Origin: Bacteroidota bacterium
GTDB lineage: Bacteria > Bacteroidota > Ignavibacteria > Ignavibacteriales > Melioribacteraceae
Assembly: GCA_021801605.1 (NCBI GenBank)
Contig: JAJYXU010000033.1
Span: forward strand, 1-39,894
Reading direction: 5' to 3'
Length of the DNA stretch: 39,894 nucleotides
The position numbers and the translations under genes were made by a program. Shown in pieces: positions 1,725 through 9,128 of this stretch (position 1 is its first letter; every line of letters begins with the position of its first letter). The notes under the pieces are model-generated. The model saw only the letters and a list, made by a program, of their open reading frames with translations, did no database searches and was not told the origin of the DNA.

Positions 1725-2342
1725 TTATTTCATGTTTTGTTTTACTTGCAAACAGTGCTGAGTATGAGGAACTGCCGCAAGCCGGTCTTTTGGAACTAAA
1801 GGGCAAGTTGGGCAAAGGTGCTGCGGTTCATCAATGCATTCTATGCAAATGCCGTATGTTCCATGATCAATTCGCTGAAGAGCGTCATCAAGATACCCAA
1901 GAAATTTATTTTCGCGCTGAGCCCATAAGTAAAGTTTTTCGCGCTCCATTGCGTCTGTTCCCTGTTCTGCCATATGCAATGAATAAGGAGAATTTTCATT
2001 TACATACTGACCAGTTGTAGTATCCATCATCTGATCTTTTAATGCCTGGAGCTGCTCAATAATTTCATTTCTCTTATCAAGGATGATTTTCTTAAATTCG
2101 TCTAATTCTTTCTTCGAATATCCTTGAATCTTTTTTACTTTTTTTGTTGGAGAGATAATTTCCACATGTTTACGCGATTTAGAAATCTTAGTAACTTTTA
2201 TATTCTTTTTTGCCGTTACTTTCTGTTTTGGTTTTACACTCTTCACTTTGTTAACTTTTTTTGGTTTGCTCACCACTTTTTTAGTTGCCTTGCTTTTAGC
2301 AGCAGTTTTTTTAACTATTTTTTTTACAGGTTTTTTTGCCAT
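1725..2342 (-). CDS. TraR/DksA-family protein with Lys-rich N-terminus and altered zinc finger
   Basis: Probable RNA-polymerase-binding or transcription-modulating protein of the TraR/DksA family. Residues 1-~72 are very rich in lysine, alanine and valine, like a histone or nucleic-acid tail. Residues 77-160 form the helical coiled-coil portion, and residues 164-200 the zinc-finger portion. The cysteines are C166, C169, C177, C180 and C197. The second pair (CPTC) sits in an insertion of about ten residues and the usual final CxxC has only C197. The PKDRLAAVPH signature after the insertion confirms the family. It sits between ileS and lspA, the place occupied by the DksA-like ylyA in Bacillus. 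The acidic tip that defines true DksA is not obvious, so I give no dksA symbol. Confidence 0.85.
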   Translation of the reverse strand: MAKKPVKKIVKKTAAKSKATKKVVSKPKKVNKVKSVKPKQKVTAKKNIKVTKISKSRKHVEIISPTKKVKKIQGYSKKELDEFKKIILDKRNEIIEQLQALKDQMMDTTTGQYVNENSPYSLHMAEQGTDAMEREKLYLWAQRENKFLGYLDDALQRIDHGTYGICIECIDEPQHLCPTCPLVPKDRLAAVPHTQHCLQVKQNMK

Positions 2343-2354
2343 AGATGCCTCCGT

Positions 2355-5300
2355 TTACAATATTGTTACTTTAGCAACTGCAATCGTACAATCGTAATCG
2401 CCAATTTTAAACTCTTGTTTTAGTCCATTAACAAGACTTTCATGTTTAAGAGAATCTGCAAGGACTTCTCTGGAAATATACTCAGAAAACTTATAAACAT
2501 AATCAATCATTTTTTGTTCGCCGGTGAAGGAAACAACTATGCGATCCACTACATCAAAGCCGGCATCTTTTCTCAAATTCTGCACACGGTTAACAAACTC
2601 GCGAGCATAACCTTCGGCAATTAAATCTTCGTTCAGTTCGGTATCGATTGCTACCGTTACTCCTTCTTCACTTTCAACAATCCGGCCTTCAATTTCGTGA
2701 CTAACAATTTCAACATCTTCACGAGAAATCTTTACAACTTGACCATCAATTGAAAGCTCATACTCACCGGTTTTTTCAAGTGCAAGAACAGCATTTTTAT
2801 CTAATTCTTTTATAGCATTTGTAAGCTGCTTCACTAGTTTGCCGTATTTAGGTCCGACAACTTTAAAATTTGGCTTTGCAGATTTATTCACGATTGCCGA
2901 GTCATCTTCAAGAACAATCAATTCTTTGATATTCACTTCTTCCAAAATAACTTCACTCATTTTTTGAAGCGATTCTCTTTTAGATTTATCAACTGCAATC
3001 ATCATTTTCAAAAGGGGTTGTCGGACTTTCAAATTATTTTTTGCACGAATTGAGCGTGTGAGAGATACAACCCGCTGAGCAACATCCATTTTTTCTTCAA
3101 GCTCCGGTTCGAAATATGTTGTTGCGGGATAATCTGCAAGATGAACAGATTCATACTCCTCATTTTTTGTTGCAAGATTTAGATTCTGATATAACTCCTC
3201 GGATATAAAAGGTGCAAACGGAGAAATTAATTTTGTAATAGTAACTAAACACTCATACAAAGTTTGATAAGCAGAAATTTTGCTGTTATTCATTTCCGAT
3301 TTCCAAAAGCGTCTTCTGCTTCTACGAATATACCAGTTTGATAACTGATCAATTGTGAAACTTGAAACTAGACGAGCAGCTTTAGTAACATCATAGTTCG
3401 CCATCAGCTCATCGTATTCTTTAACTAGTGAATTTAGTTTGGAAATGATCCACCGGTCAATTTCCTGTCTCTCTTTATAGGCAATTGGTTTTTCGGAAAA
3501 ATCAAATTTGTCTATGTTGGCATAAAGAACAAAAAAGTTATAAGTGTTTACCAAAGTGCCGAAGAATTTTCTTTGAACCTCAGCGATTCCCTCTTCATCA
3601 AAGAGTGTCGGTTTCCATGGCGGACTTGTAGTTACCAGATACCACCGGGTTGCATCAACGCCATATTTATCAAAAAGAATAAACGGATCAACAGTATTAC
3701 TGCGGCTCTTGGACATTTTGAGTCCTTGTTTATCAAGGATCAATTCATTGACAATTAAATTCTTAAAAGATACCTGATCGAACAGCATTGTGCCTATTGC
3801 GTGAAGAGTATAAAACCAACCGCGCGTTTGATCAATTCCTTCGCATATAAAGTCTGCCGGATAATTTTCTTTAAAGTATTCCTGGTTTTCAAATGGATAA
3901 TGGTATTGAGCAAAAGGCATTGCACCGCTGTCAAACCAAACATCAATTAATTCCGGTGTGCGTTTGAAAATTTTTTCATCACGCTCAAATTTAACATCAT
4001 CAACAAAAGGTTTGTGCAAATCAATTTCTTCTGCAGGCAAATCTTTTACCAAAATTCTTTTCCCGTCACGTTCAACAAACCCTTCTTTCAATTCTGCAAT
4101 AGAGCCGATAACAAACATATCGCCATTATCGTTCATCCAAATTGGAAGCGGTGTGCCCCAATAACGATCTCTTGATAGTGACCAATCTTTATTTTCTTCG
4201 AGCCAATTTCCAAAGCGACCGGAACCAACTTCAGGAGGACACCAATTTATCGTACTATTGAGTTCAATCATTCGTTTGGCAACATCCGTTGTGCGAATGT
4301 ACCAGCTATCGCGAGCATAATAGATTAATGGATTGTCACATCGCCAGCAGTGCGGATATGAATGGAGATAATCATTGCCGGCTTTGTAGATAAGGTTACG
4401 TTCTTTTAGATTGCGAATGATATCCGGATCAACTCCTTTTTCTTCGCGGTCTTCAAATTTTATGGTTTTAACAAGACGACCGGCAAAATCTTTTACTTCG
4501 TCTGTAAATCTTCCGCTTTTAGTTACCGGCTGAACAAATGGTAAATTATATTTTTTTGAAACTTCATAATCATCCGCGCCAAATGCCGGTGCTATATGGA
4601 CGACGCCTGAGCCATCTTCCGTGCTTACAAATTCACCAGGAATGATATACCATGCGCGTTTATCAACCGGTACAAATGAATAGAGCGGTTCGTAATCTTT
4701 GCCAAGAAGTTCTTCACCTTTCAATTTAGAAAGGAGTTCGTATTCTTCTTTGATAACAGAAAGTCTTGCTTTGGCAAGATACATAACGCCATGTTTTTCG
4801 ATTTTGATTTTTACATAATCAATTTGAGGACCAACCGCTAATGCGACGTTTGAAATCAAAGTCCAGGGAGTAGTTGTCCAAACAAGAATTGAGGCGTCTT
4901 CATTTTTCAATTTGAATTTCACATATACACTCGGATCCTGTACATCGGCATAGCCAAGAGCAAGTTCGTGAGAAGAGAGAGGAGTTTCACAATGAGGACA
5001 TTGCGGAACAATTTTGAATCCTTTATAAATAAGACCTTTTTTGAAATATTCAGAAAGAGCCCACCAGACAGATTCAATGTAATCGTTTGTACAAGTAATG
5101 TATGGATCATCGAGATTAATCCAGTAGCCCATTCTTTCAGTAAGAGTGCGCCATCCTTCTTTCATTTCGATATGATGGTAAACTAGATCTTTCGCTTTTT
5201 TATTGAATGCACCGACTCCATATTTTTCAATATCGGATTTTTGTGCAAAGCCAAGTTCTTTTTCAAGCGCTATTTCAACCGGAAGTCCATGAGTATCCCA

Positions 5301-5552
5301 GCCCGCTTTACGATGAACTTGAAATCCTTTCAACGTTTTATACCGGCAGACTAAATCTTTTAGAGTTCTTGCCATCACGTGATGAATTCCCGGGCGCCCG
5401 TTTACGGTTGGTGGTCCTTCATAAAATGTAAATGTTTTTGATTTTGGACGTGAGGTTATACTCTTTTCAAAAATCTGATTCTTTTCCCAAAATTTGAGAA
5501 CTTCTTCTTCGATCTTTGGATAATTTATTTTTTCATCAAACTGCTTAAACAT
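2355..5552 (-). CDS. ileS: Isoleucyl-tRNA synthetase
   Basis: Charges tRNA-Ile in the cytoplasm. The class I signature is GIHH (55-58) after PPTVNGRP, the form seen in Bacteroidota-type IleS. The second signature KMSKS is at 612-616. A CPHC cluster and the long CP1 editing insertion lie between them, followed by the WCRCDNP motif. The C-terminal third (about 700-1065) holds the anticodon-binding helices and an extended domain (VNRVQNLRKDAGFDV). At 1065 residues it belongs to the long, eukaryote-like IleS2 class, which is often naturally tolerant of mupirocin; that property is inferred. The start ATG at 5552 follows an AGAG-type ribosome site. It is followed 12 bases later by the DksA-family gene. 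Confidence 0.97.
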   Translation of the reverse strand: MFKQFDEKINYPKIEEEVLKFWEKNQIFEKSITSRPKSKTFTFYEGPPTVNGRPGIHHVMARTLKDLVCRYKTLKGFQVHRKAGWDTHGLPVEIALEKELGFAQKSDIEKYGVGAFNKKAKDLVYHHIEMKEGWRTLTERMGYWINLDDPYITCTNDYIESVWWALSEYFKKGLIYKGFKIVPQCPHCETPLSSHELALGYADVQDPSVYVKFKLKNEDASILVWTTTPWTLISNVALAVGPQIDYVKIKIEKHGVMYLAKARLSVIKEEYELLSKLKGEELLGKDYEPLYSFVPVDKRAWYIIPGEFVSTEDGSGVVHIAPAFGADDYEVSKKYNLPFVQPVTKSGRFTDEVKDFAGRLVKTIKFEDREEKGVDPDIIRNLKERNLIYKAGNDYLHSYPHCWRCDNPLIYYARDSWYIRTTDVAKRMIELNSTINWCPPEVGSGRFGNWLEENKDWSLSRDRYWGTPLPIWMNDNGDMFVIGSIAELKEGFVERDGKRILVKDLPAEEIDLHKPFVDDVKFERDEKIFKRTPELIDVWFDSGAMPFAQYHYPFENQEYFKENYPADFICEGIDQTRGWFYTLHAIGTMLFDQVSFKNLIVNELILDKQGLKMSKSRSNTVDPFILFDKYGVDATRWYLVTTSPPWKPTLFDEEGIAEVQRKFFGTLVNTYNFFVLYANIDKFDFSEKPIAYKERQEIDRWIISKLNSLVKEYDELMANYDVTKAARLVSSFTIDQLSNWYIRRSRRRFWKSEMNNSKISAYQTLYECLVTITKLISPFAPFISEELYQNLNLATKNEEYESVHLADYPATTYFEPELEEKMDVAQRVVSLTRSIRAKNNLKVRQPLLKMMIAVDKSKRESLQKMSEVILEEVNIKELIVLEDDSAIVNKSAKPNFKVVGPKYGKLVKQLTNAIKELDKNAVLALEKTGEYELSIDGQVVKISREDVEIVSHEIEGRIVESEEGVTVAIDTELNEDLIAEGYAREFVNRVQNLRKDAGFDVVDRIVVSFTGEQKMIDYVYKFSEYISREVLADSLKHESLVNGLKQEFKIGDYDCTIAVAKVTIL

Positions 5553-5588: not shown

Positions 5589-6203
5589 TTATTCTTCTTC
5601 CGATTCATATTTTTTAATTAATTCTCTCTCCGCTGCAATGAATTCTTTCAGCCGTCTTTCAATTTGATTTTTTCTTTCAACCATATCATTAACGCCTTGC
5701 TGAACTTGATAAATCATTTTATCTGCTTTTAATTTTGCTTCTTCAACTAAAAGATGAGCTTCCTTCTGTGCATTGATCAATATTTTTTTTGAATCTTCTT
5801 CTTTGGATTTTGAAGGACCGCCCAGTCTCTGCAGAATTATTACTTCAGAAATTGCCATACCGCAAAATGCCATAGCGCCAAGCATAATGTTGCGCAAGAT
5901 ATAGAGAATCATATTTTCTACCAGCAAATCGCTCAGTCCGAAATACCCGCTGAAAAATGAAATTAGCAGAACACTGATGAATGTTGAGGCAACAATTACC
6001 GCGAAGACTACTTTGCCGCCGTGATTATAACCGAGTGTTTTGTTCATCAGCCACCCGCATGCAAAAGAGAAAAGTGAAAGAACAAACCAAACGGAAAAAT
6101 TTTGAAAACCCGCTTTGAACAGATCGGTGCTTAAAAAATTGGATGCAAAAATTATTACAGCAAGCAGCGCCGGTGTTGAGTAATATATTTTTTTCTTTTC
6201 CAT
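5589..6203 (-). CDS. Four-TM membrane protein with DivIVA-like coiled-coil tail
   Basis: I do not recognise this as a named family. The first ~125 residues contain four hydrophobic segments (about 12-30, 38-55, 65-88 and 101-124). After a short linker (GGPSKSKEED), residues 138-204 form a charged coiled coil. The segment AQKEAHLLVEEAKLKADKMI resembles AKKQTALMIKEAELKSLQII of the DivIVA protein encoded two genes upstream. The stop of punA and this start overlap by one base (TAATG), so the two are translationally linked. It lies between punA and ileS in a run containing divIVA. A membrane-anchored partner of DivIVA at poles or septa is an inference. An ATP-synthase-b-like or general scaffold protein is the alternative. 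Confidence 0.7.
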   Translation of the reverse strand: MEKKKIYYSTPALLAVIIFASNFLSTDLFKAGFQNFSVWFVLSLFSFACGWLMNKTLGYNHGGKVVFAVIVASTFISVLLISFFSGYFGLSDLLVENMILYILRNIMLGAMAFCGMAISEVIILQRLGGPSKSKEEDSKKILINAQKEAHLLVEEAKLKADKMIYQVQQGVNDMVERKNQIERRLKEFIAAERELIKKYESEEE

Positions 6204-7024
6204 TATAATTTTTTTATTACTTCTTTCATTATTAAAGTCATTTTCGGTTCAGCCTGCATTGCCGTCGCAATTATCTCTTCAACTTTGGCGGGTTTCAATG
6301 AATCCGGAAAACATTCATCAGTTATAATACTTACGCCAAGAACTTTCATACCCATTTGGTTCGCAACAATATTTTCAGGAATTGTTGACATTCCGACTAC
6401 ATCAGCGCCGATAGCGCGTAGAAATCTATACTCAGCTTTTGTTTCAAGATTTGGACCGGGTACAGCAACGTAAACTCCTTTTTGAACTTTCACCTTATTA
6501 TCAAGAGCAACATCTTCCGCAATTTTGATAAGTTCTAAATTGTAAGGTTCACTCATATCCGGAAAACGCGGACCTAAATGATCTTCGTTTTTCCCGATAA
6601 GGGGATTATCACCCAGCATATTAATATGATCAACCATCAGCATAATATCTCCGCGCCGGTAAATTGGGTTCATACCACCGCATGCATTAGATACAATCAA
6701 AGTTTTTACACCAAGATATTTCATTAAACGAACCGGATATGTGATTTGCTTCATCGTATATCCTTCGTAAAAATGAAACCGCCCCTGCATTGCAACTACA
6801 TCTTTACCGCCTATCTTTCCAAAAATTAATTTACCGTGGTGAGACTCAACTGTAGAAAGCGGAAAGTGAGGCAGATCTGCATAATCAATTTCATGTTCTA
6901 CAGAAATTTCTTTTACTAATCCGCCAAGACCGGTGCCCAATATAATTCCAACTTCATAATTTTTGTTAGTCTTCTTACGTATAACTGCAAGAGTTTCATT
7001 AATCATTTCCAGAAGATTACTCAT
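6203..7024 (-). CDS. punA: Purine nucleoside phosphorylase, trimeric (PNP-I/PunA) family
   Basis: Phosphorolysis of purine nucleosides to base plus ribose-1-phosphate in salvage. Family motifs: GTGLGGL (30-36), HHG (62-64), GRFHFYEG (81-88), SNACGG (112-117), the Glu of NLETKAE (E194), and GMSTIPE (211-217). At 273 residues it has family length. The base-specificity position aligned with human Asn243 (ITN) reads ITD here (Asp236), so 6-amino purines may be accepted as well as 6-oxo; see findings. Its start overlaps the divIVA stop (ATGA at 7021-7024) and its stop overlaps the next start by one base, so it sits firmly inside the operon. The link between salvage and a divIVA neighbourhood is not explained. 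Confidence 0.93.
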   Translation of the reverse strand: MSNLLEMINETLAVIRKKTNKNYEVGIILGTGLGGLVKEISVEHEIDYADLPHFPLSTVESHHGKLIFGKIGGKDVVAMQGRFHFYEGYTMKQITYPVRLMKYLGVKTLIVSNACGGMNPIYRRGDIMLMVDHINMLGDNPLIGKNEDHLGPRFPDMSEPYNLELIKIAEDVALDNKVKVQKGVYVAVPGPNLETKAEYRFLRAIGADVVGMSTIPENIVANQMGMKVLGVSIITDECFPDSLKPAKVEEIIATAMQAEPKMTLIMKEVIKKL

Positions 7025-7569
7025 AAAAGTTTCTCCAATATATCATCAACATTAATTTCAGTTTGATCGTCTTGACCTATATGTTCTTTTACAACTTCTT
7101 TTTTCTTAGGACGGGTCTCAATGTTCTGCATATTCATTTCAAGAAAACTCGATTGAGTATCGAGCATTGCTTTTAATCGAGCTAACAATAATTTTTTCTC
7201 TTCACGCAATCTAAGAACCGAATCGCGAATTGAGTTTGCAGTCTCTTTTGCTTTTTCAATTATCTGAAGAGATTTAAGTTCTGCTTCTTTAATCATCAGT
7301 GCAGTCTGCTTCTTTGCAGATTCAACCGTCTTACTTGTAGATTCAGTTTGATTCAACATTGCCTGTTGCAGACTTTTTTCGATCCGCTTAAATTCTTTTA
7401 ACTGATCTTCCTGGCGATCGAGATCAATCTTCAGCTTCTCATTTTCGTTTTGAAGGATTTCAAATTCATCGGATAGTTTTTCTAAAAAAGCTTTTACTTC
7501 ATCGCGATCGAAACCGCGGACGGTCCGGTTGAATTCTTGATTCTTAATGCCAAACGGTGTGAACTTCAT
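7021..7569 (-). CDS. divIVA: DivIVA domain-containing protein
   Basis: Cytoplasmic coiled-coil scaffold. The N-terminal 60 residues match the DivIVA lipid-binding domain (FTPFGIKNQEFNR, then VRGFDRDEVKAFLEKL). A long coiled coil follows (about 30-150). The last ~35 residues are a less ordered polar tail. In Gram-positive bacteria such proteins sense negative membrane curvature and organise poles and division; the role in this lineage is inferred. It lies 33 bases after yggS and overlaps punA by four bases. yggS, divIVA, ileS, a DksA-like gene, lspA and rluD appear in the same order as in Bacillus. The start ATG has only a weak ribosome site (GAAG), consistent with coupled translation. Confidence 0.9.
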   Translation of the reverse strand: MKFTPFGIKNQEFNRTVRGFDRDEVKAFLEKLSDEFEILQNENEKLKIDLDRQEDQLKEFKRIEKSLQQAMLNQTESTSKTVESAKKQTALMIKEAELKSLQIIEKAKETANSIRDSVLRLREEKKLLLARLKAMLDTQSSFLEMNMQNIETRPKKKEVVKEHIGQDDQTEINVDDILEKLL

Positions 7570-7602: not shown

Positions 7603-8277
7603 CTACCTGCTGCCAAAGATTGCTGTTCCAATTCTAAGCATAGTTGCACCTTCTTCAATTGCTATATCGTAATCGTTAGTCATCCCCATCGAAAGTTCAG
7701 TTAGCATGTAACCATTCTGAGTTAACTTTTCTTTAATCTCTCTTAATTTGATGAAACAACTCCGGACAACATTAACATCGTCTGTGTACGGTGCCATCGT
7801 CATCAATCCCGTCAAGTTCAAATTAGAACTACTCTTGCAAAACTCAGCAACTTTAAAAATTTCTTTTTCGTTATTAAGACCGAGTTTAGCGGTCTCGCTG
7901 GAAGTCTTTATTTCAAGCAGAACTTTTTGTGTTTTGTTTATCTGTTCAGCTTTACGATTAATTTCATCAGCTAATTTAATTGAATCAACGGCATGAATAT
8001 AATCTGCCGCATTTATTACATATTTTATTTTGTTCGTTTGAAGATGACCGATAAAATGCCAGCGGAAATCTCCTTTAATCAGCTCTGATTTGTCCCGAAG
8101 TTCTTGAGCTTTATTCTCTCCAAGCTCTTTAATCCCGGAATTTAGAACTTCTTTAATAACTTCAACGGGTTGAGTTTTACTCACCGCAATCAATTTAATT
8201 TCAGAACGATTCCTTCCGCATTTATAGCAGATTTCTTCAATCCTACCTTCAAGTTTTTTAAGATTTTCTGAAATCAT
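7603..8277 (-). CDS. yggS: YggS/PROSC-family pyridoxal-phosphate homeostasis protein
   Basis: PLP-binding alanine-racemase-like barrel without a second domain. Members keep PLP and amino-acid pools in balance and have no strong enzymatic activity. PLP lysine is K34 in AVSKTQP. Other motifs are HFIGHLQTNK, LLEIKTSSETAKLGL, GLMTMAP and the phosphate-binding SMGMTNDYDIAIEEGAT. The usual SMGMSxD is slightly changed to SMGMTND. At 224 residues it has family length. It is the first gene of the minus-strand run, downstream of a sigma70-like promoter. The ATG at 8277 has only a weak Shine-Dalgarno sequence. Confidence 0.94.
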   Translation of the reverse strand: MISENLKKLEGRIEEICYKCGRNRSEIKLIAVSKTQPVEVIKEVLNSGIKELGENKAQELRDKSELIKGDFRWHFIGHLQTNKIKYVINAADYIHAVDSIKLADEINRKAEQINKTQKVLLEIKTSSETAKLGLNNEKEIFKVAEFCKSSSNLNLTGLMTMAPYTDDVNVVRSCFIKLREIKEKLTQNGYMLTELSMGMTNDYDIAIEEGATMLRIGTAIFGSR

Positions 8278-8401: not shown

Positions 8402-8644
8402 CTAAGATTTAATTTTATGCTTCATTTTTCGGGTTTGTTTTTTCGAGATAAACTCTTCTAATGTAATAGAATTACCGGATTTCAAATCCAATTCGTTTTT
8501 TCTTTTTGCCTGGTCGTAACCTAACGCGCAATTTAATTCATCAATTTCATCTATTAATTTCTCATAGATTTTCATGTCTAAGATTACAGCCGTTTTCTTT
8601 CCGTTAGAATCTATTACATATTTCTTTTTTATCGGTTCAGTCAT
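8402..8644 (-). CDS. Small Phd/YefM-like antitoxin, no toxin adjacent
   Basis: Eighty residues. The N-terminal half (KKYVIDSNGKKTAVILDMKIYEKLIDEIDEL) has the pattern of Phd/YefM-type or related antitoxin N-termini, a beta hairpin followed by YEKLIDE helix. The C-terminal part is charged and ends with a basic tail (KKQTRKMKHKIKS). An AAGG-type ribosome site precedes ATG 8644 and an intrinsic terminator follows the gene. No toxin gene lies on the same strand: downstream is yggS, and upstream is a divergent nucleotidyltransferase. It may be an orphan antitoxin or a small regulator. The assignment rests on pattern similarity only. Confidence 0.6.
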   Translation of the reverse strand: MTEPIKKKYVIDSNGKKTAVILDMKIYEKLIDEIDELNCALGYDQAKRKNELDLKSGNSITLEEFISKKQTRKMKHKIKS

Positions 8645-8810
8645 TGATTTACCTTATGAATTTTATTACTCTCTGCTAAAAGATAAGAATTTTTTTTGTT
8701 GCTCTCCTCAGAGTTATTAAAGTCAACGAATTCTCAATCCAAACATAATGAATAGATACTCTATAGAAAAAAAATTATATTTTGACAGCATTTATAAGGG
8801 AAAAAAGAAA
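8645..8810. promoter_or_regulatory. Divergent control region between the antitoxin-like and MNT genes
   Basis: About 160 bases between the two start codons. A 40-base segment at 8712-8752 is a near copy (about 75-80% by eye) of 8311-8351, including GTCAACG and CATAA/TATAA words; the upstream copy overlaps the yggS promoter. The recurring AAAGTCAAC is TTGACTT on the minus strand, a -35-like word. Confidence 0.4.
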
Positions 8811-9128
8811 ATGACTGTTGAGCAAATAACAAACGAGCTGAAACTTAGTCTGATACAATTACTGCCGGATAGAATTAATAAAATGATTCTATATGGTTCT
8901 TATGCAAGAAAGGAAGCTACAAGCGATTCCGATATTGATATTCTTGTTATTTGCAACGGTGCGGTTGATTCACAACTAAGAGAGCAGATTTATAATGAGT
9001 GTTACAAAATAAATTCCCAACACGATGTTTGGATAGATATAAGTTTGTTAGGTGAAGATGACTTAAAAACGATTCGAGGTAAACAGCCATATATTCAGAA
9101 TGCTCTTTACGAAGGAATAGCTCTGTGA
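8811..9128 (+). CDS. MNT-type nucleotidyltransferase domain protein
   Basis: A minimal nucleotidyltransferase, 105 residues from the chosen start. The family signature GSYARKEATSDSDIDILV carries the GS pair and two metal-binding Asp residues, and the C-terminal YIQNALYEGIAL matches the typical family end, so the protein looks complete. The open frame begins upstream at 8748, but ATG 8811 has an AAGGGAAAA ribosome site at good distance and gives the normal family N-terminus. MNT proteins usually pair with a HEPN RNase; some such MNTs AMPylate the HEPN toxin to silence it. Here a GTGA overlap at 9125-9128 opens a second frame that resembles a degraded HEPN start. Confidence 0.85.
   Translation: MTVEQITNELKLSLIQLLPDRINKMILYGSYARKEATSDSDIDILVICNGAVDSQLREQIYNECYKINSQHDVWIDISLLGEDDLKTIRGKQPYIQNALYEGIAL

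Follow-up and report, generated by a model that had tools for sequence, protein, structure and literature searches.

A four-helix membrane protein with a DivIVA-like tail, encoded beside divIVA in Ignavibacteriales, is a probable membrane partner of DivIVA

Introduction

DivIVA is a well-studied scaffold of the cell pole and septum in Gram-positive bacteria. Excerpts of one article describe how it binds membranes by its N-terminal domain, with F17/R18-type loop residues, and how its dimers join into tetramers via a four-helix bundle of their conserved C-terminal ends (PMC3924036). The same excerpts present MinJ of Bacillus subtilis as a six-TM protein that bridges DivIVA and MinD (PMC3924036). 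In Corynebacterium glutamicum, the membrane protein GlpR binds Wag31, the DivIVA homologue; it occurs at the septum together with FtsZ and Glp, and is described as having two disordered regions besides its three predicted TM helices (PMC10522489).

Here we describe a 204-aa protein, labelled MEMC throughout, which is encoded on the minus strand at positions 5589-6203 of a 39,894-nucleotide stretch of DNA (the window) from a Bacteroidota bacterium of the order Ignavibacteriales. An earlier note on this DNA had read the protein as four TM helices ending in a coiled coil, and had proposed that it may be an anchor or partner of DivIVA.

Results

MEMC is embedded in a conserved gene cluster

The genes on the minus strand follow the order yggS, divIVA, punA, MEMC, ileS, dksA-like, lspA, rluD. 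Of these, divIVA, punA and yggS were assigned by Pfam; the names dksA-like, lspA and rluD are our assumption from the look of the sequences, as are the gene names yggS and ileS. The features around MEMC are as follows.

2355..5552, minus strand: presumably ileS, adjoining MEMC downstream (synteny)
6203..7024, minus strand: punA, which shares 1 base with MEMC and 4 bases with divIVA (Pfam PNP_UDP_1, 1.5e-54; sequence)
7021..7569, minus strand: divIVA, the proposed partner of MEMC, with the coiled-coil counterpart of the MEMC tail at about 7135-7326 (Pfam DivIVA, 8.1e-29)
7024..7056, minus strand: INVDDILEKLL, a peptide at the DivIVA C-terminus that recurs within the order (in-order DivIVA alignment A2)
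7603..8277, minus strand: yggS-like gene, head of the conserved cluster (Pfam Ala_racemase_N; synteny)

As the earlier note had stated, divIVA lies two genes from MEMC. The start of MEMC and the end of punA share base 6203 (TAATG), and the divIVA and punA frames overlap at 7021-7024. Overlaps of this kind are usual in relatives, where the spacing from punA to MEMC is -4 or -1 in 40 of 44 cases and the divIVA and punA frames overlap in 30 of 35. The overlapping frames suggest, short of proof, that MEMC is translationally coupled to punA; of the earlier claim of coupling, the overlap stands as fact and the coupling itself as a suggestion.

We inspected 53 in-order loci, all chosen for holding MEMC and including two contigs fetched twice. 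All 53 had ileS downstream; punA was present in 50 of them and divIVA in 49, the contig end or the limit of the fetched stretch cutting off the others. The neighbourhood is therefore nearly constant in the order, contrary to the lack of conservation that the earlier note had named as counting against its proposal. The cluster yggS-divIVA-punA-ileS-dksA-lspA is kept also in many loci without MEMC, and because it is conserved in families that have no MEMC, the neighbourhood alone proves little.

Among 17 fetched MEMC-less loci with both punA and ileS, the interval between the two held no notable ORF in eight, a small two-TM gene alone in six and other genes in three (L115, L223, L228). The two genes were not seen together in four more MEMC-less loci (L124, L221, L222, L225). 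A two-TM protein of about 74-84 aa with an LPGD motif, which we take to resemble DUF2905, sits at MEMC's spot in the punA-ileS interval in loci of other families (L122, L219, L220, L223, L224, L226, L227, L228). A 253-aa four-TM ORF after punA in L223 (alignment A1, E = 6.5e-4) was considered as an orthologue of MEMC and rejected, its sequence being transporter-like; as far as it was read, it has what we assume to be a VUT/YhhQ-type look.

Several other features of these loci were recorded. The gap between MEMC and ileS is about 1.8 kb in two Ignavibacteria bacterium loci, L099 (6618-8434) and L102 (1685-3499). Two adjoining lspA-like genes occur in the clusters of L047, L049, L050, L052, L059, L064, L066, L067, L068 and L072, unlike the window, which has a single one. 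The dksA-like protein of the window (1725-2342, minus strand) carries a lysine-rich N-terminal extension of about 70 residues. In the window, a RelB-like antitoxin ORF (8402-8644, minus strand; Pfam RelB-like, 2.9e-7) stands back to back with an ORF at 8748-9128 (plus strand), presumably a minimal nucleotidyltransferase by its motif GSYARKEATSDSDIDI.

MEMC is predicted to have four TM helices and a long cytoplasmic tail

The predicted segments of MEMC are listed below. The end of its membrane part, at about residue 128, is an estimate, since TM helix 4 runs unbroken into the tail.

5589..6203, minus strand: MEMC, DivIVA-like-tailed membrane protein, 204 aa, ATG start (ORF; relatives in the order; AF2 model)
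6141..6191, minus strand: predicted TM helix 1, residues 5-21 (AF2 helix)
6033..6107, minus strand: predicted TM helix 2, residues 33-57, with conserved W39, G50 and W51 (AF2 helix; conservation)
5955..6029, minus strand: predicted TM helix 3, residues 59-83, with conserved G62-G63 near its start (AF2 helix; conservation)
5820..5924, minus strand: predicted TM helix 4, about residues 94-128, with conserved E96, R104, G109 and G115 (AF2 helix 94-203; conservation)
5592..5780, minus strand: DivIVA-like tail, presumably cytoplasmic, residues 142-204 (hhalign; column comparison with DivIVA; per-protein scores with controls)
5604..5660, minus strand: C-terminal motif ERRLKEFIAAERELIKKYE, residues 182-200 (conservation; counterpart of the DivIVA coiled-coil end)

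The AF2 model, built on a 49-row alignment, had a mean pLDDT of 83.8 and a pTM of 0.57, with helices at residues 5-21, 33-57, 59-83 and 94-203. By prediction, MEMC thus consists of four TM helices, the last one extending into a long tail helix; ORF and model agree with the four-TM protein ending in a coiled coil that had been read from the letters. By hydropathy, the complete relatives that we examined have 3-4 TM helices. Charge at the N-terminus and in loop 2 suggests that both termini are cytoplasmic. Within the C-terminal motif, E192 is invariant in all 49 alignment rows.

The four-TM part was compared with known folds, and the FtsX/LolC/HrtB-type TM domain was considered as its fold class. 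VIA Z scores reached at most 9.9 (7w7c_B, r.m.s.d. 5.3, 127 aligned), in the range of common helical bundles, and the best Foldseek match had an E value of 0.26.

The tail resembles the C-terminal coiled coil of DivIVA

Pfam DivIVA was the best family match of MEMC (residues 136-188, E = 2.7e-4, 21.3 bits, under the cut-off of 28), and it was found at E <= 0.1 in 48 of 49 aligned family members. In a search of its own genome with MEMC, DivIVA ranked second after MEMC itself (E = 0.0016), the next match following at 0.032; a genuine AtpF is encoded elsewhere in that genome (C157).

Comparison of whole alignments by hhalign matched the tail to DivIVA with a probability of 95.5; the match has a 7-residue gap within the tail and a longer one ahead of it. 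For the tail alone, we used three main DivIVA sets. Against 12 outgroup DivIVAs, picked because they matched the tail, the score was 65.0 (P = 1.7e-11, 65 columns), compared with 39.3 for the reversed tail. A second set comprised ten DivIVAs from genomes with a weak or no profile match (G107 among them); six of the ten genomes matched the profile at 7e-5 to 8e-4, which makes the set less selected, not unselected. This set scored 52.5 (P = 4.3e-9) and 41.7 with the reversed tail, its one control. The order's own DivIVA scored 42.4, and since the reversed tail did nearly as well (41.5), that similarity taken alone is weak. Five DivIVAs of f54, a more distant family, scored 35.1 (reversed, 30.7). 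Heptad-block shuffles of the tail (n = 60) reached at most 39.4 against the outgroup and 33.6 against the in-order DivIVAs, and RNase Y and AtpF scored 29.0 and 24.4 with the tail alone.

Reversed tails scored 31-42 overall, which we think reflects a near-palindromic EAxxKA segment. Because these scores are high, the case rests on the 65-column forward match, a register scan and per-protein scores. The consensus of the tail is identical to that of the picked outgroup DivIVAs at 29 of 61 positions with one 7-residue gap, which was imposed as hhalign had found it. In the C-terminal part, 12 of 27 positions were identical at a shift of 7 and five at most at 14 other shifts. A tail HMM gave at least 10 bits for all ten second-set DivIVAs (median 19.9), all five f54 DivIVAs (median 23.5) and 34 of 37 in-order DivIVAs of alignment A2 (median 19.7; 3 of 37 under 10). 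AtpF reached that score in 0 of 28 cases (median -1.4, maximum 9.3) and RNase Y in 1 of 30 (17.1 bits; median -13.5).

By these comparisons, the MEMC tail is homologous to the DivIVA C-terminal coiled coil and one heptad shorter. The EA-x-LK pattern in which the earlier note had seen a likeness is real, extends to the C-terminus and exceeds chance in several controls; the profile comparison it had proposed gave scores of 65.0, 52.5 and 42.4 with the DivIVA sets, the last of them, for the order's own DivIVA, no better than that of the reversed tail. A generic coiled coil, such as that of ATP synthase b or RNase Y, that resembles DivIVA by chance would agree with the weak matches to families of ATP synthase b, V-ATPase and RNase Y and with the match to a presumed YtxH-like protein in family f16. 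Against it, the AtpF and RNase Y controls score below DivIVA, the match keeps to one register, offset by 7 residues, and the C-terminal motif is collinear with that of DivIVA. We regard this explanation as very improbable. As tail identities, ATP synthase b, RNase Y and a generic coil are ruled out as far as the two control families go, and the tail is not the ATP synthase b or generic match that had been named as a possible refutation.

At 13 columns, MEMC shares the state of the outgroup DivIVAs, which were picked by match, and the order's own DivIVA differs; the reverse holds at four. It looks as if the original DivIVA tail now resided in MEMC, to judge by these columns. A clean subfunctionalisation, with the ancestral DivIVA end moved to MEMC, was considered and is not established, given a selected outgroup and variation among other families. 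In a tree of YggS plus PunA, families f52, f15 and f16 were nearest to the order; the f52 DivIVA has Q instead of E at the key site, likewise examples from f8 and f51.

MEMC and DivIVA occur together across the order

A single-sequence search found MEMC in 55 of 57 genomes, its own included, two of them (G043, G050) matching through the tail only. A further single-sequence match in G296 (f8), 27% identical with two stops, was discarded, as neither the window proteins nor the profiles matched anything in that stretch. We then surveyed 391 genomes class-wide with an MEMC profile and the Pfam DivIVA model. Of the 91 genomes searched from the order, which is of Ignavibacteriales/Melioribacter type, 89 matched the MEMC profile and 88 matched Pfam DivIVA: 88 matched both, one MEMC only (G541) and two neither (G013, G572). 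The relatives, as sampled in 13 loci, come from MAGs labelled Bacteroidetes, Ignavibacteriae/Ignavibacteria, Ignavibacteriales bacterium, Stygiobacter and Melioribacter.

Five f54 genomes, which lie outside the order, carry MEMC relatives directly after punA (E = 2.8e-28 to 3.6e-34), so that DivIVA is present in 93 of 94 MEMC-bearing genomes. Among the f54 loci, L107 has ileS following MEMC; the 5-6 kb of downstream sequence fetched for L108, L109 and L110 contained no ileS, and L111 ends too soon to show whether it follows. A sixth f54 genome (G355) matched the MEMC profile at 1.5e-4 only. In the YggS plus PunA tree, f54 lies away from the order with a support of 0.03, a value so low that one gain with losses and two gains of MEMC are indistinguishable. 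Beyond the order and f54, matches in the class begin at about 4e-7; in 13 such loci (L113-L125) the matched protein was DivIVA in 11 and, in two from f16, a protein of 127-128 aa that we take to be YtxH-like (E values reaching 1e-6).

Joint loss of MEMC and divIVA in G013, G031 and G572 was set aside as evidence, because the true punA is missing too and the stretch may be unassembled; only a punA paralogue of 33-35% identity was found in these three. G625 (82% complete) gave no match either. A second purine-nucleoside-phosphorylase-like gene, 32-36% identical to that of the window, was present in all eight genomes searched for it (G013, G031, G541, G553, G563, G572, G603, G505) and was the sole copy found in three.

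The tail seems to follow DivIVA in natural variants

In G541 (same family, 100% complete), yggS ends 13 bases ahead of punA with divIVA missing from between them, and MEMC and ileS come after punA. The cluster is otherwise intact at this locus (L215, 5866-7390; G541:C31). Pfam DivIVA found nothing in G541 at E <= 1e-4 (10 of 14 candidates scored), in a search that was positive in 88 of 91 in-order genomes; profile A2 found no DivIVA at E <= 10 (17 of 17 candidates scored, run without a positive control). The G541 MEMC scored 167.5 bits over its TM part and 4.2 bits over its tail, compared with tail scores of 37.1-90.2 bits in 11 held-out members of the order (best identity to a model row 44-95%; L073 and L074 excluded as identical to rows) and 49-55 bits in f54. 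The tail stretch is still hydrophilic and helix-like, and its EAxLKA and ELIKKYE signatures are lost.

Three genomes of genus g32 show the complementary pattern: the tail is kept (43-48 bits) next to a TM part of 8-13 bits, and DivIVA is present. Their MEMC relatives measure 259-384 aa, and a long acidic linker, as seen in the sequences of L055 and L062, joins the membrane part to the tail. Their positions are as follows.

L055, 5545-6324: g32 MEMC relative
L062, 6061-6840: g32 MEMC relative
L112, 5832-6986: g32 MEMC relative

In G553, one of the 89 in-order genomes with a profile match, a divergent protein occupies the place of MEMC (5.7e-4), its DivIVA is divergent too, and the tail scores 11.3 bits, with little left beyond the terminal motif.

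The membrane and tail modules of MEMC evolve independently of each other, and the tail appears to track DivIVA. Tail decay upon DivIVA loss is a single case (n = 1, G541 alone) and carries no statistic. That the tail signature is lost in the sole MEMC genome without DivIVA supports a partnership between the two proteins. The TM module probably has a DivIVA-independent role as well, because it is intact in that genome. Its persistence there would also suit a protein that is independent of DivIVA altogether, with a tail borrowed for its own oligomerisation and a neighbourhood that is merely inherited gene order, as would the retention of the cluster in many MEMC-less loci. Yet the DivIVA-like signature is precisely what the G541 protein lost, and g32 keeps both tail and DivIVA while the TM part diverges. 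We consider full independence improbable.

Discussion

The best explanation, and in our judgement the probable one, is that MEMC is an integral-membrane partner of DivIVA, joined through DivIVA's tetramerisation end and linked to membrane machinery. Tail homology, neighbourhood and the loss of the tail signature in G541 all support the anchor or partner first proposed for this locus. MEMC lacks the N-terminal membrane-binding domain of DivIVA and carries the C-terminal tetramerisation segment; TM helices stand where that domain would be. The tail contains the segment by which DivIVA dimers are linked, so it should pack with the DivIVA end. A mixed MEMC/DivIVA coiled-coil bundle would be the simplest mechanism. 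Through it, the DivIVA scaffold, itself soluble and curvature-seeking, would gain an arm integral to the membrane at poles or septum; alternatively, DivIVA could recruit the TM module of MEMC to DivIVA sites. We infer co-assembly with DivIVA and a polar or septal location.

PunA-corrected distance correlations over 35 species were 0.45 between the MEMC TM part and the DivIVA N-part, 0.39 between tail and N-part, 0.33 between tail and CTD and 0.25 between TM part and CTD. As the tail/CTD pair is not singled out, they say only that MEMC and DivIVA diverge together. A fuller scheme is conceivable and offered tentatively: a split DivIVA system, in which DivIVA, soluble and curvature-binding, forms mixed coiled-coil networks with an integral-membrane protein related to its tetramerisation end, and these networks tie the four-TM module to pole or septum.

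The main rival to mixed-bundle anchoring is capping of DivIVA assembly, in which MEMC acts as an antagonist: its tail would cap the DivIVA C-terminal end, limit tetramer or network growth and so tune or disassemble DivIVA. MEMC carries the segment that joins DivIVA dimers, as the excerpts of PMC3924036 describe it, and a segment one heptad shorter could give mismatched mixed bundles. Against this, no sequence evidence separates capping from co-assembly, and DivIVA binds the membrane by itself, which leaves both capping and anchoring possible. We think an antagonist unlikely and favour the membrane partner.

Comparison with known systems

MEMC has no named family in Pfam, NCBIfam or the PDB, and the earlier statement that no named family has this architecture holds for these databases and the papers searched. 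In the open-access literature, no paper combining DivIVA and Ignavibacteria was found; among papers on DivIVA and membrane partners, judged by title and abstract opening, none describes such a protein. A word search of the available text of PMC3534657 for five division terms returned none of them.

F-type ATP synthase subunit b and the N-terminal region of RNase Y share with MEMC a TM segment followed by a long helix, and have one N-terminal TM helix. Against the tail, subunit b (PF00430) had an hhalign score of 24.4, below the 65.0, 52.5 and 42.4 of the DivIVA sets. DivIVA itself (PF05103, with its relatives Wag31 and GpsB) has the C-terminal coiled coil, the same segment order and the end motif in common with MEMC. 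Unlike DivIVA, MEMC stays below the Pfam cut-off (21.3 versus 28 bits), is made up of predicted TM helices over residues 1-129 and matches only positions 74-126 of the Pfam profile; by the span of this match and the AF2 model, the lipid-binding N-terminal domain with its F17/R18-type loop is absent from MEMC.

In this group of environmental bacteria, DivIVA probably has in MEMC a membrane protein dedicated to it. If true, MEMC would be a DivIVA anchor or regulator built with DivIVA's own assembly end, and a peripheral scaffold would have reused one of its domains to gain a partner integral to the membrane. MinJ has a PDZ domain, and we know of no DivIVA-type tail in it. As the excerpts describe it, MinJ is transmembrane and DivIVA-linked like MEMC, with six TM helices versus four. 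GlpR differs from MEMC in that the available part of its description mentions no DivIVA-like coil (PMC10522489). Likened by description, MinJ and GlpR may be regarded as functional parallels of MEMC.
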